Of a stretch of 44,570 nucleotides of DNA, positions 5,157 through 44,360 are shown in pieces; within the stretch, counting starts at the first letter, position 1; the number at the start of each line of letters is the position of its first letter. The stretch comes from Desulfobulbaceae bacterium (lineage in GTDB: Bacteria; Desulfobacterota; Desulfobulbia; Desulfobulbales; Desulfobulbaceae), in assembly GCA_015484845.1 (NCBI GenBank), contig WFUT01000126.1, positions 1 through 44,570 on the forward strand. The letters are read 5' to 3'. A model generated the notes under the pieces. It was not told where the DNA came from, did no database searches, and saw only the letters and a program-made list of their open reading frames with translations. The position numbers were made by a program, and so were the translations under genes.

Positions 5157-5200
5157 AAAAAATCCCCGGACCAATAATCAAAAGGTTATTGGTCCGAGGA
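5157..5200 (-). terminator. Intrinsic terminator: expression platform of the B12 riboswitch
   Basis: On the minus strand a 15-bp stem with one G-U pair (arms 5200-5186 and 5177-5163; core GGACCAATAA/TTATTGGTCC) is followed directly by six T residues (5162-5157). It lies between the riboswitch and the receptor start. An alternative stem, CGAGGA (5212-5217) with TCCTCG (5195-5200), would occupy the base of the terminator's 5' arm and is a candidate antiterminator. This implies transcriptional control by B12. Confidence 0.85.
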
Positions 5201-12409: not shown

Positions 12410-12445
12410 GGCGACCGGCCGGGTGGCGCCACCCGGCCGGTCGCC
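12410..12445. terminator. 16-bp hairpin directly after the TolC-like stop codon
   Basis: A perfect 16-bp stem with a four-base GCGC centre (arms 12410-12425 and 12430-12445) touches the stop codon of the outer-membrane efflux gene. The minus strand has T-rich sequence only about 17 bases later. The plus-strand side has a run of Ts inside the stop region, but no gene points that way. Probably the efflux operon's 3' end, or an mRNA-stabilising hairpin. Confidence 0.55.
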
Positions 12446-29994: not shown

Positions 29995-30564
29995 TCAGAT
30001 ATCCACGATCACGCCGTCACTGAAGTCATAGGCGTCCGTGGAGAGGTCATAGTCCATCCGCCCGGCCCGGATGGTGAACCCCTTGCCCACGATCTTCACG
30101 TCCACCGGGCTGACCACCATCTTGGTCTGGTCGTAGTAGTGAAGGAGATCGGTATAGAGCACCTCGTGGGTGGCAGGCTTCCTGACCACCACGGAGTCGA
30201 TCAGGATCAGGTGCCGTTCATCGAGATAGTAGGTGCCGCGGTTGCTGGATATGCGGACGGGTTTGCCGGGGTCCCTGCCGATGTAGAGGGCATCGACGCC
30301 GATCATGCCCAGCTCCCGGTCGGTCCTGCCCGTAAATGCCCGCTTGGCCTTGATGATCCACTCCTTGCGGCCGTTGCTGTTCAGGGTGATGGTGATGGCG
30401 TCCATGATGAAGTTCTGGCCCTGTCCCTCGCCGCTGCCGGACAGGCTGGCGCCAAAGTCACCCCGTGGCGTCAGGAAGGCAACCAGGGCCGGCTTCCAGA
30501 GCGGGCTGGAAACAAAGAGAAGAAGCGGGATCAGCCAGAGCAGGTTGCGCGGATTCTTCATCAT
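29995..30564 (-). CDS. lptC: LPS export protein LptC
   Basis: 189 aa. One N-terminal membrane helix (LLWLIPLLLFVSSPLW) is followed by a beta-rich periplasmic domain of the LptC/YrbK type (WIIKAKRAFTGR; ISSNRGTYYLDERHLILID; GKGFTIRAGRMDYDLSTDAYDF). LptC receives LPS from LptBFG and passes it to LptA. The start overlaps the kdsC stop (ATGA). lptA and lptB, which often follow, are not next to it; dapL is. Confidence 0.9.
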   Translation of the reverse strand: MMKNPRNLLWLIPLLLFVSSPLWKPALVAFLTPRGDFGASLSGSGEGQGQNFIMDAITITLNSNGRKEWIIKAKRAFTGRTDRELGMIGVDALYIGRDPGKPVRISSNRGTYYLDERHLILIDSVVVRKPATHEVLYTDLLHYYDQTKMVVSPVDVKIVGKGFTIRAGRMDYDLSTDAYDFSDGVIVDI

Positions 30565-31217
30565 CGGTCATAGCGGGCCAGGGCGGACGCCAGGGCACCG
30601 CGCGCCTCGAGCAGCAGGTCGCAGACCTCGCGCACCGCGCCGCGGCCGCCACCCTGTTCGGTGACGTAGTGGACCCGGCCCCGCACCTCGGCCACCGCGT
30701 CCGCCGGCGCAAGCGACAGCCCGACCCGGCCGAGCAGGGGCAGGTCCAGCCAGTCATCCCCCATGTAGGCGGTCTGCGGCGGCCGCAGGCCGCTTGCCGA
30801 CAGGATCTCCTCGTAGACCGCGAGCTTGTCCCTGCACCCCTGGTAGACATGGGCCAGCCCCAGGTCGGCGGCGCGGCGCTGCACCGCCTCTGATTCCCGG
30901 GCCGTGATCAGCCCCGCCTCCACGCCGTTGTCCTGGAGGAGACGGAGGCCAAAGCCGTCCCTGGTGTTGAACCCCTTGGATTCGCCGCCATCGGTGGTAT
31001 AGACGATGGTCCCGTCCGTGAGCACGCCGTCCACGTCGAGCAGGAGCAGCCGCACCTGCCTGGCCCGGGGCAGGACCCGCTGCCAGGCCTCGCTCCGCTC
31101 CAGGGGCCTGTTCCGCTGCCGGGCCCGCTCCCTGAGGGCCGCTGTCAGCTCGCAGTCCGAGGGATAGCCCTGGCCATTGCCGGCTCCGGACGGGCCGGAG
31201 ATGCCGCAGCTACTCAT
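30561..31217 (-). CDS. kdsC: Kdo-8-phosphate phosphatase KdsC (HAD family)
   Basis: 218 aa. The HAD motif DVDGVLTDG has the nucleophile D61 and D63; later come [18 protein letters not shown] and [12 protein letters not shown]. It removes phosphate from Kdo-8-phosphate. About 50 N-terminal residues precede the usual start of the ~170-aa family; no good internal start is seen, so the extension may be real. Its first codons overlap the kdsA end by eight bases. Confidence 0.92.
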
Positions 31218-32058
31218 CGTCCCCTTCCCCGCTCACAGCGGACCGGATGGCCAGAAGCTGCCTGAGCAGGGGCTCCACCTGGTCCAGGGGCCAGGAGTTG
31301 GGCCCGTCACAGAGGGCGTGATCCGGATCGGGATGCACCTCCATGAACAGGCCGTCGATTCCCGCGGCCATGGCCGCCCGGGCCAGTGGCGGGATGAACT
31401 CGCGCTGGCCGCCGGAGCAGCCGTCGCCGCCGCCGGGCAGCTGCACGGAATGGGTGGCGTCGTAGACCACGGGACAGCCCAGGGAGCGCATCACCGGCAG
31501 GGAGCGCATGTCCACCACCAGGTTGTTGTACCCAAAACTGGCGCCCCGCTCGGTGAGCAGGATGCGGTCGCAGCCGGCGGCCCGCAGCTTGTTCACCGCG
31601 TGCCGCATGTCCCAGGGCGAGACGAACTGCCCCTTTTTCAGGTTCACCGGCCGGCCCGACTTGGCCACCGCCACCAGCAGGTCGGTCTGGCGGCAGAGAA
31701 AGGCCGGGATCTGGATGATGTCGAGCACGTCGGCGGCCATTGCCACCTGGCCCACCTCGTGGATGTCCGAGACCACCGGCACCCCCACCTCGCTGCGCAC
31801 CCGCGCCAGCTGGCGCAGTCCCTTTTCCAGGCCCGGCCCGCGAAACGAGTCCAGGGAGGTGCGGTTGGCCTTGTCAAAGGAGGCCTTGAAGACGTAGGAG
31901 ATCCCCAGGCGGCCGGCGATGGCCTTCATCTCGCGGGCGATCTCCCAGGCCAGTTCGCCTGACTCGAGCACACAGGGACCGGCCAGGAGCAGGAGCGGCC
32001 GGCCCGGCCCCACCTCGATGGGCGCGGACCGGTTGTTGATGACAACGGTCTGCATCAT
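31210..32058 (-). CDS. kdsA: 3-deoxy-8-phosphooctulonate (Kdo-8-P) synthase
   Basis: 282 aa. Family signatures are [57 protein letters not shown] and [20 protein letters not shown]. It condenses arabinose-5-phosphate with phosphoenolpyruvate for the LPS inner core. The start at 32058 (ATGATG) overlaps the pyrG stop. Confidence 0.97.
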
Positions 32059-33722
32059 GCCCCGCCCTTCCCGGCCTGGCGGGCCTCCAGGGCGGCGCGG
32101 ATAAAGTCGCGAAACAGGGGATGCGGCTTCATGGGCTTGGACTTGAACTCGGGATGGAACTGGCAGCCGAGAAACCAGGGATGGTCGCCCAGCTCCACGA
32201 TCTCGACCAGGGTCTTGTCGGGCGATGTGCCGGAGACCACCAGGCCGGCCTCCTCGAGCCGTTCGCGGAACTCGTTGTTGAACTCGTAGCGGTGCCGGTG
32301 CCGCTCGCTGATCTCCTCCTGGCCATAGGCCCGGGCCGCCAGGGTGTCCGGGACCAGGCGGCAGGGATAGGCGCCCAGGCGCAGGGTACCGCCCATGTCC
32401 GAGTTCTCGTCCCTGACCTCGGTCTTGCCGGTGCGGAAATCGAACCACTCCTTCATCAGGTAGATGACCGGGAAGGGGGTCGCCGGATCGAGCTCGGTGG
32501 AGTGCGCACCTTCCATTTTAGCGATATTACGCGCAAACTCGACAACAGCAAGCTGCATGCCCAGGCAGATGCCGAAGAACGGCACCCTGTTCTCCCGCGC
32601 ATGGGTGATGGCCCGGATCTTGCCCTCGGTGCCCCGGCTGCCGAAGCCGCCCGGCACCAGGATGCCGTCACACTCCTCGAGCTGCTCGATCCCACCGCCG
32701 CTCTCCAGCTCGTCGGCGCTGATGTACTTCAGCTCCACCCGGGCCTCGTTGGCAATGCCGCCGTGCACCAGGGCCTCGTGCAGGCTCTTGTAGGACTCCT
32801 TGAGGTCCACGTACTTGCCGGTAATACCGATGGTCACCGTGTGTTTCGGGTTCTTTATCCTGTGCACCAGTTCCTGCCAGGGCCGGATATGGGGCGCCCC
32901 GGTCCAGATGCCCAGTTTCTCCAGGATCCGGTCGTCCACGCCCTCCTCGTGCAGCCGCAGGGGCACCTCGTAGATGGAATCCACGTCAATGGCCGTGATC
33001 ACCGACTCCGGCTCCACGTTGCAGAACAGGGCGATCTTCTTCTTCAGGTCCGCGTTCAGGGGTACCTCGGTGCGGCACATCAGGATGTCGGGCTGGATGC
33101 CCGAGGCGAGCAGTTCCTTGACCGAGTGCTGGGTGGGCTTGGTCTTGACCTCGCCCGCGGTCTTGATGTAGGGCACGAGCGTCAGGTGGATGAACAGGGT
33201 GTACTCGCGGCCCAGGTCGCCGCGCAACTGGCGGATGGCCTCGACAAAGGGCAGTCCCTCGATGTCGCCGATGGTGCCGCCGATCTCGATGATGGCCACG
33301 TCCACGGTGCCGTCGAGCTGGAGCACGGCCCGCTTGATCTCGTCGGTGATGTGCGGAATGACCTGGACCGTGCCGCCCAGGTACTCGCCGCGCCGCTCCT
33401 TCATGATCACCGAGTAGTAGATGCGGCCCGAGGTGTAGTTGTTGATCTGGGCCATGACCGCGTTGGTGTAGCGCTCGTAGTGACCCATATCCAGGTCGGT
33501 CTCGGCCCCGTCGTCGGTGACATAGACCTCGCCGTGCTGAAAGGGATTCATGGTGCCGGGATCGACATTGATATAGGGATCGAGCTTCTGAAAGGTCACG
33601 GTCATGCCCCGGCTCTCGAGCAGGGAACCGATGGCGGCAGCGGCAAGGCCCTTGCCAAGCGAGGAGAGCACACCGCCGGTGATAAAAATAAACTTTGTCT
33701 TCTTGGTCGGTTGTATCTTCAT
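32055..33722 (-). CDS. pyrG: CTP synthase
   Basis: 555 aa. The synthase domain begins [20 protein letters not shown]. The glutaminase domain has GFGSRG, the nucleophile cysteine in FFGICLGMQ, and the H/E pair in [10 protein letters not shown]. It makes CTP from UTP, also needed for CMP-Kdo. It heads pyrG-kdsA-kdsC-lptC, an arrangement that links CTP supply to Kdo synthesis. A hairpin with a T-tract in its leader suggests attenuation. Confidence 0.97.
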
Positions 33723-33741
33723 GCCACCATCCTCTCGCCAG

Positions 33742-33772
33742 GAAAAAAGAAAAGGGCAGCCTGGGGCTGCCT
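33742..33772 (-). terminator. Terminator-like hairpin in the pyrG leader (candidate attenuator)
   Basis: Minus strand: GGCAGCC-CCA-GGCTGCC (33771-33755) followed at once by CTTTTCTTTTTT (33754-33743). It lies downstream of the predicted promoter and about 20 bases before the pyrG start. It could end the upstream phosphatase transcript, attenuate pyrG, or both. Confidence 0.7.
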
Positions 33773-33787
33773 GTATTTTAACCGAAA

Positions 33788-33816
33788 AACATACACTATC
33801 CGGCCCCCCTTGACAA
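33788..33816 (-). promoter_or_regulatory. Promoter of the pyrG-kdsA-kdsC-lptC operon
   Basis: Minus strand: TTGTCA (33816-33811), 17-bp spacer, TATGTT (33793-33788). The predicted start near 33781 puts the terminator-like hairpin within the first ~30 nucleotides of the RNA. Confidence 0.55.
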
Positions 33817-33916: not shown

Positions 33917-34642
33917 TCACTCCACGGCAACCAGGACCACGGTGATGTTGTCCCCGCCGCCGGCCCGGCGGGCCGCATCGATGCAGCGCGCCGCTTTTTC
34001 CGCAAGCGGCGCCGGCCGGACCAGCAGTTCCAGGATCCGGGCGTCATCCACCATGTCGGAAAAACCGTCGCTGCAGAGCAGAAACAGGTCAGCGGCCATG
34101 CACTGTCCCCGGATAATGTCCTCGTTCGCGGGACCGTTGGCGGTCACGGCGCGGAGCAGCACGTTGCGCATCAGGTGATGCCGCGCCTCTGCCGGGCTGA
34201 CGACCCCCTGGTCCACCTCCTGCTGGACCAGTGTGTGGTCCCTGGTAAGCAGCCGCAGCCTGCCGCCGCGGAGCAGGTAGGTCCGGCTGTCGCCGACATG
34301 GCCGAGGACAAAGCCGCTCCTGTGCAGGAGCAGCAGTTCGGCGGTGCAGCCCATGGCGGCATGGGCCGGGTGCTGCGCAACGTGGCGGAGGATCGCCTGG
34401 CGGGCCTCGGTAAAGACCCGTCGCAGACAGGCCACGGCCAGCGCCTCGGAACGATGGGGACCGGAGACGACCACCCTGGCCGCGGTCCGGACAAAGAGAC
34501 CACTGGCCACCTCGCCGGCCGCGGCGCCCCCCATGCCATCGGCCACCAGGAAAAGGCCGCTCTCCGTGTCAGCCAGCCACGCATCCTCGTTGTTGCTGCG
34601 CCGCAGGCCGATATCGCTCCTGCCACAGGCAGAGATCCGCAT
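33917..34642 (-). CDS. PP2C-family serine/threonine phosphatase
   Basis: 241 aa from the ATG at 34642, preceded by GGAGGAG; an ATG at 34654 is possible. PP2C metal and catalytic motifs are in order: SDIGLRRSNNEDAW, LVADGMGGAAAGE, GHVGDSRTYLLR, SDGFSDMVDD and GGGDNITVVLV. Acts on phosphoserine/threonine proteins in the cytoplasm; no partner kinase is next to it. It sits upstream of pyrG on the same strand. Confidence 0.92.
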   Translation of the reverse strand: MRISACGRSDIGLRRSNNEDAWLADTESGLFLVADGMGGAAAGEVASGLFVRTAARVVVSGPHRSEALAVACLRRVFTEARQAILRHVAQHPAHAAMGCTAELLLLHRSGFVLGHVGDSRTYLLRGGRLRLLTRDHTLVQQEVDQGVVSPAEARHHLMRNVLLRAVTANGPANEDIIRGQCMAADLFLLCSDGFSDMVDDARILELLVRPAPLAEKAARCIDAARRAGGGDNITVVLVAVE

Positions 34643-34964
34643 GCGCTCCTCCATGCCGCCACCCTGGCCGCCACCGCAAGCCGGTGACACGCCGACACCG
34701 TGTCACCTGCGGCCGGCCGCCCTTTTTCACGAACAGGATACCCCCTTGCCCGGCGATGGGCAAGCAGGACACGGCCCGGCCGGCGGACACTCCCTGCTTG
34801 CGGTTTCATGCCAAAGGTAGTACGAGTTGAAATCACAAGGAGTTGCAGTGGCTCACCTGTCTCGGCCACCTGCCGGAACAGGGGACTCGAATCCGCACCC
34901 CGGCGCAGGCCCTGAGCTCCAGGCCGGCGGTTGCGGCCCATTCACCCATGCACGGGAGGACAGC
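34643..34964. other. Divergent intergenic region
   Basis: 322 bases between the PP2C phosphatase and flavodoxin-like genes. I see no convincing promoter, riboswitch or conserved frame. Confidence 0.4.
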
Positions 34965-42872: not shown

Positions 42873-43123
42873 CCGGCAAAAAAAGGGCCGGAAGCGCGAG
42901 TGCTTCCGGCCCCCATGCCGTGGCTCACCTGGTCGTGGCCGGCGGTCCTGCCGTGCTTTTTCCGGACCCGCCGGCGGCCTCGGCTGCTGCCGCTGCCGGC
43001 TTGCCGCCGCCCTGCTCCTTCTTCAGGTCCTCTTTCTTCTTCTCAACCAGCAGCTCGCGCTTTGTATCGAGCAGGGGCGTGAGCTGCCAGCCCGGAACCT
43101 TGAAGTAGAGATCCGAATCCGAG
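42873..43123. repeat. Left copy of a ~250-bp direct repeat (3' end and terminator of a gene)
   Basis: Nearly identical to 44319-44570: apart from the terminator loop and one extra stem base I count three substitutions. It consists, on the minus strand, of the last ~65 codons of a protein plus its terminator. In coding sense the left copy stays protein-like to about 43170, and the right copy runs off the window, so the true repeat is probably ~300 bp. Confidence 0.92.
42878..42912 (-). terminator. Terminator of the left repeat copy
   Basis: Minus strand: 11-bp stem GGGCCGGAAGC (arms 42912-42902 and 42895-42885), then seven Ts (42884-42878). On the plus strand the loop reads GCGAGT, the exact reverse complement of the right copy's ACTCGC. 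It also sits just after the PerM-family gene on the other strand. Confidence 0.88.
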
Positions 43124-44323: not shown

Positions 44324-44360
44324 AAAAAAAGGGGCCGGAAGCACTCGCGCTTCCGGCCCC
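44324..44360 (-). terminator. Terminator of the gene at the right edge
   Basis: Minus strand: perfect 12-bp stem GGGGCCGGAAGC (arms 44360-44349 and 44342-44331), then seven Ts (44330-44324). The loop is inverted relative to the left copy. Confidence 0.92.

Follow-up and report, generated by a model that had tools for sequence, protein, structure and literature searches.

A conserved hairpin in the pyrG leader of Desulfobulbaceae, possibly a leaky promoter-proximal terminator

The window, that is, the whole stretch of 44,570 nucleotides analysed here, is a single contig from a 3.38-Mb draft genome of a Desulfobulbaceae bacterium. Its minus strand carries pyrG, kdsA, kdsC and lptC (Table 1), a gene order proposed in an earlier sequence-only reading and supported by profile matches that all lie on the same strand. 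The start of kdsA is located well inside its reading frame because of the part of the frame that the KdsA match covers. Some of the pyrG matches from the genomes compared have one internal stop (TGA in G030, G032, G008, G049, G050 and G172; TAG in G132 and G200; TAA in G190), which may be no more than the ordinary stop close to the C terminus. Ahead of pyrG, the minus strand reads, in order, TTGTCA-17-TATGTT, TTTCGGTTAAAATACA, GGCAGCC CCA GGCTGCC, CTTTTCTTTTTT, CCTGGCGAGAGGATGGTGGC and the pyrG ATG at 33722.

Table 1. Genes and leader features at the pyrG locus of the window
Feature	Position	Strand	Basis and remarks
pyrG, CTP synthase, 555 aa	32055..33722	-	NF003792/TIGR00337
Reading frame holding kdsA	31210..32448	-	NF003543/TIGR01362; KdsA match = residues 143-405
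kdsC	30561..31217	-	TIGR01670, above cut-off
lptC	29995..30564	-	TIGR04409
PP2C-type phosphatase gene, upstream	33917..34690	-	NF033484, 203.1 bits, under its 230 cut-off
-35 element TTGTCA, pyrG promoter	33811..33816	-	Promoter scan; TTGTCA/TTGTAA-like, 17 bp from -10, in most family leaders
-10 element TATGTT	33788..33793	-	Preceded by GATAGTG; family consensus near GATnGnG
Expected transcription start region, G6 T7 T8 A9 after -10	33779..33782	-	Inferred from promoter spacing
Hairpin GGCAGCC-CCA-GGCTGCC	33755..33771	-	7 bp, loop CCA, -12.2 kcal/mol; compensatory changes in relatives
T-rich tract CTTTTCTTTTTT adjoining hairpin	33743..33754	-	Sequence
Likely Shine-Dalgarno GAGAGG	33731..33736	-	Sequence; inferred

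The pyrG promoter has nine of 12 consensus bases and a spacing of 17, and the 4 kb scanned contained two promoter-like sites against 0.5 expected. T, T and A occupy positions 7-9 after the -10 (33781-33779), in the sequence GGTTAA that fills positions 5-10, and a start there would lie 8-10 bases before the stem; the ATG follows 20 bases past the T-rich tract and 32 past the stem. The earlier claims of a promoter with 17-bp spacing, of an RNA start about ten bases before the hairpin (predicted from that spacing), and of a GGCAGCC/GGCTGCC hairpin followed by a T-rich tract, with pyrG some 20 bases further on, therefore hold. Between the hairpin and the pyrG ATG, no -10-like or other promoter-like hexamer was found in the window sequence. 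A three-codon frame, ATG GTG GCA TGA (33719-33730, minus strand), ends over the pyrG start codon in an ATGA overlap, and its letters are identical in both same-genus relatives. In 61 of the 66 family pyrG leaders we could identify a -35 and a -10 element 17 bp apart, one of these assignments (L025) being doubtful. Across 73 family genomes the ATCGTGTATANTTT version of the -10 region has 19 matches; 16 matches are at pyrG, and the three others seemed unrelated, one lying upstream of a gene that we take to be aprB.

Folding of the whole 63-nt leader is no stronger than that of its shuffles (z -0.23) and is thus uninformative, so that the evidence consists of the hairpin and T-tract combined. On the terminator score d, computed by the scheme of d'Aubenton-Carafa, the window leader reaches 22.4 and is one of seven sites with d of at least 22 on both strands of the 44.6-kb window, against 0, 0, 1, 1, 1 and 0 such sites in six shuffled windows. 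Other strong combinations of hairpin and T-tract occur in the window at 5164-5199 (minus strand) and 12410-12445 (plus strand), and the minus strand has two strong terminators that are nearly identical, each with a T7 tract and a long GC stem, about 1.4 kb from each other (44331-44360 and 42885-42912). The sequence-only reading had proposed conservation of the hairpin in related pyrG leaders as a check, and this was borne out: a hairpin of -5 kcal/mol or lower, ending 25-45 nt before the ATG, is present in 47/66 family pyrG leaders vs 48/274 other genes sampled from four family genomes, and a hairpin with at least eight T in the next 12 bases in 22/66 vs 0/274, the related genomes in these counts not being independent of each other. 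The 66 leaders come from 69 family genomes with a pyrG match, three of which lack the 5′ end; by the -5 kcal/mol test the hairpin is missing in 19 of them. When d of at least 15 is used as the test, such an upstream hairpin is found in only one of the 307 genes that have room for it upstream, taken from four family and three f12 genomes. An Rfam search with 601 bases gave no family at gathering score, the best hit having 18.4 bits vs 42.

Conservation among the genera of the family was followed in an alignment (A1) of the 42 leaders with an alignable hairpin, leaving out genera g4, g9 and g14 and 12 named single leaders. The six stem pairs form in 91.5% of its cells, in leaders that were chosen for having the hairpin, compared with at most 65.1% for slid registers of the same stem. 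Cells changed on both sides number 10, against a mean of 2.8 when the 3′ letters are shuffled (0 of 500 shuffles as high) and at most five in the slid registers; a single pair (columns 44-61) accounts for eight of these 10, and RNAalifold on a MAFFT alignment returned only three consensus pairs. The tract nTTTTCTTTTT is common to g1 (the window's genus), g5, g8, g10, g11 and g13, and g3 and g12 have similar forms of it. A T-tract is present in 0/7 g2 and 4/22 g7 leaders, where a mixed or poor C/U stretch mostly takes its place, and g9 and g14 have stems of different sequence and no tract. By d, the window leader, most g3 leaders, g5, three g8 leaders and some others are terminator-like; most g7 leaders are not, nor is any scored leader of g2, g9 or g14. 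Judged from these comparisons, the hairpin is genuine and conserved in the family, as part of a pyrG 5′ leader predicted to start at the promoter just upstream.

In the window's genus this element would most likely be a leaky promoter-proximal intrinsic terminator, a reading that we favor tentatively, at somewhat less than even confidence, and in which termination itself is predicted from the sequence. Some RNA polymerases would end transcription at the U-tract, after about 35-40 nt, and this partial stopping would set the output of pyrG-kdsA-kdsC-lptC. The terminator-like hairpin and T-tract, their enrichment over other genes, the retention of stem pairs and the independence from the PP2C gene all speak for it. 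Against it count that the hairpin outlasts the U-tract in several genera, that the conserved C in nTTTTCTTTTT is unneeded for a generic terminator, that RNAalifold finds so few pairs, that 19 leaders fail the -5 kcal/mol test, and that no antiterminator emerged. Since the hairpin is kept without the U-tract in g2, most g7, g9 and g14, part of its function may be other than termination. In a search for an antiterminator in 44 leaders, the pairing of 5′ segments with the hairpin arms or the tract did not surpass that of shuffled segments (median ranks 0.53-0.65), with the exception of the 3′ arm in g2 (rank 0.01-0.06). In three g2 leaders (L022, L125 and L129), GGCUG of the 3′ arm can pair with CCAGCC at the predicted 5′ end, which would then compete with the 5′ arm (-8.6 kcal/mol, rank 0.01-0.03 vs shuffles). 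For Pseudomonas aeruginosa, the available parts of PMC8297930 present potential regulation of pyrG, in a pyrG-kdsA operon, by 3′-end formation in the leader, and early termination at a Gram-negative pyrG has thus been suggested before. That system resembles the present one as a Gram-negative pyrG-kdsA operon with suspected early termination, and in those same parts its mechanism is not worked out.

The main rival to the leaky terminator is that hairpin and pyrimidine tract act on the mature mRNA, with no termination involved, the stem protecting the 5′ end or exposing, ahead of the Shine-Dalgarno sequence, a U/C-rich site for ribosome stand-by or for S1. We consider this unlikely, if worth keeping in mind. 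It would explain why g7 and g2 retain the stem although their U-run has degenerated into a mixed C/U tract, and the position of the hairpin end in the 47 leaders that passed the -5 kcal/mol test would fit a hairpin-tract-Shine-Dalgarno module. However, a similar spacing would be expected from short leaders alone, and the near-identical U-run beside the stem in g1, g3, g5, g8 and g10-g13 suits a terminator better.

A further possibility is that the window leader is governed by CTP-sensing start-site switching of the pyrC type, the hairpin only shaping the RNA. In Escherichia coli pyrC, transcription at high CTP starts at C7 and gives an RNA whose hairpin blocks translation, and at low CTP it starts at G9; such switching in pyrC and pyrD of E. 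coli and Salmonella was reportedly described by Wilson (1992), Sorensen (1993) and Liu and Turnbough (1994). The E. coli pyrC promoter has the layout TATCCT-TTGTGT-C7C8G9; CCGGC lies at the 5′ end, and GCCGG overlaps the Shine-Dalgarno sequence. An array at the identical distance from the -10 is found in most of the related pyrG promoters: 37 of the 61 readable family promoters have C7C8, all 37 with a purine at position 9, compared with none of 24 other family TTGWCA-17-TATAMT promoters (recovered from 30 loci); in g2, g7, g8, g9, g12 and g13 most leaders have the array. Pairing of the 5′ end with the Shine-Dalgarno region is also possible in g8/g13, whose RNAs would begin with CCAUC; in L015 and L118 it amounts to -7.5 kcal/mol, better than with every Shine-Dalgarno sequence of other genera, and would be nearly all lost if transcription started at position 9. 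In g2, g7 and g9, however, this duplex is mostly no better than with the Shine-Dalgarno sequences of other genera. Unlike enteric pyrC, the gene concerned is pyrG, and the window and its genus have no C7C8R9, the bases being T7T8A9 (L002 and L003) or G7G8T9 (L004), so that start switching leaves the window unexplained. The window's 5′ end is also not complementary to its own Shine-Dalgarno sequence, no complement to GAGAGGATGG being present in TTAAAATACA (judged by eye, the duplex test having covered C7C8 leaders only). For the window we therefore regard this mechanism as improbable.

Two other features of the promoter region may be recorded here. A poly-A interpretation of the window's A9-A12 run was given up because the same-genus relatives are without the run. 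An inverted repeat flanks the -10, for example CTGATGAGG-TATGGTGTATT-CCCATCAGG, in L015, L118, L112, L009, L126, L121, L122 and L144, and in g8, g13 and some g7 leaders (L015, L118, L112 and L126) the -10 lies inside a dyad, GATnGnG-N-CnCnATC, whose mean score is 3.41 vs a maximum of 3.20 among 200 shuffled right arms. The idea that this dyad is an operator was rejected, as most genera lack it (g9, the window's g1 and nearly all g2), and no regulon was found for it, the g8/g13 version at 0-1 mismatch occurring almost only at pyrG.

The sequence-only reading had likened the layout to the CTP-sensing attenuator of Gram-positive pyrG. In that attenuator, a pyrimidine-rich upstream arm pairs with poly-G; attenuation of Bacillus subtilis and streptococcal pyrG is said to have been treated by Meng et al. 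in 2004. According to the available parts of PMC4448216, PMC4403831 and PMC6431027, it operates in both through CTP-sensitive reiterative G addition at the start. Part of the likeness stands, since the gene is the same and a conserved, terminator-like hairpin with T-tract follows directly after the start, where termination is predicted. The CTP mechanism does not: in a Gram-negative host, the window has only G5G6 near the start and no G-run, its 5′ arm GGCAGCC is not C/U-rich, no antiterminator is seen in its genus, no Rfam family reaches gathering score, and several family genera keep the hairpin after losing the U-run. That reiterative G addition builds an antiterminator here is accordingly very improbable, and if this leader is regulated, it is not via a poly-G antiterminator of the Gram-positive kind. 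Least credible of all is that the hairpin merely ends the PP2C transcript, the outcome that would have undone the earlier reading: the PP2C gene, which lies on the strand of pyrG, does end some 195 bases before the pyrG start codon, but it precedes pyrG in only one of 78 upstream stretches (up to 1.5 kb each, some shorter), that of the window genome, and both same-genus relatives are without it while keeping the promoter upstream of the hairpin, the hairpin and the tract. The PP2C gene is outside the conserved unit, and the hairpin belongs to pyrG.

The comparison was also carried to pyrG in other families of the order. From 133 non-family genomes with a match, 53 upstream regions (L148-L160 and L186-L225) were chosen for spread before viewing, and in 40 of them, from 10 of 11 other families, TATANT ends 5-8 nt before the pyrG ATG, so that the message is predicted to be leaderless. 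The 13 others are not leaderless-like and include three f12 genera with a longer leader; a third type of pyrG leader, GTTGCC...TATAAA with 35-45 nt to the ATG, was noted in L186, L187, L189, L191 and L194 (f12 genera g45, g60 and g61). In all 31 regions with an ATG starting at position 8 or 9, base 7 is C. Among the 40 leaderless-looking regions C immediately precedes the ATG in 36 and T in three, and a plain pyrimidine preference before the start base would have allowed T. At TGCTATART-N7-ATG sites, C occupies this place in 13/13 pyrG cases vs 7/42 others (56 matches, with one unassigned left out), and of 300 genes from three f12 genomes 96 have C before the ATG and one is leaderless-like.

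It is thus possible, if still doubtful, that a CTP-sensing pyrG start array (C7, often C7C8, then a purine) extends across the order and acts as a leaderless CTP gate outside the window's family. In most other families the purine of the array would be the A of the start codon. When CTP is plentiful the polymerase would start at C and make 5′-C(C)AUG, which would be poorly translated as a leaderless message, and with falling CTP it would start at A and make a well-translated 5′-AUG, so that CTP synthase would be switched on through a change of one or two bases at the 5′ end. The window's family would later have gained a leader with Shine-Dalgarno sequence and hairpin, several of its genera keeping C7C8R9 and the window's genus losing it. 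Unlike in enteric pyrC, where a Shine-Dalgarno hairpin is involved, the switch in the leaderless-looking families would alter the bases that precede the start codon at the 5′ end. Nucleotide sensing at the start without a repressor is also described for pyrBI, carAB, codBA and upp in the available parts of PMC6245113 and PMC4448216, with U-runs and UTP in place of the C and CTP of the proposed pyrG array. A literature search covering few subscription papers found no published description of a leaderless pyrG with a CTP-dependent start, a weak sign of novelty. If the proposal is true, the CTP level would shift the start of the pyrG mRNA by one or two bases, which alone would gate translation in the leaderless relatives.

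To our knowledge, CTP control of pyrG has hardly been described in Gram-negative bacteria. CTP synthase supplies the CTP for lipid A/Kdo activation, phospholipids and RNA, and a conserved leader hairpin in pyrG-kdsA operons suggests that the CTP supply of Gram-negative bacteria may be under early control.
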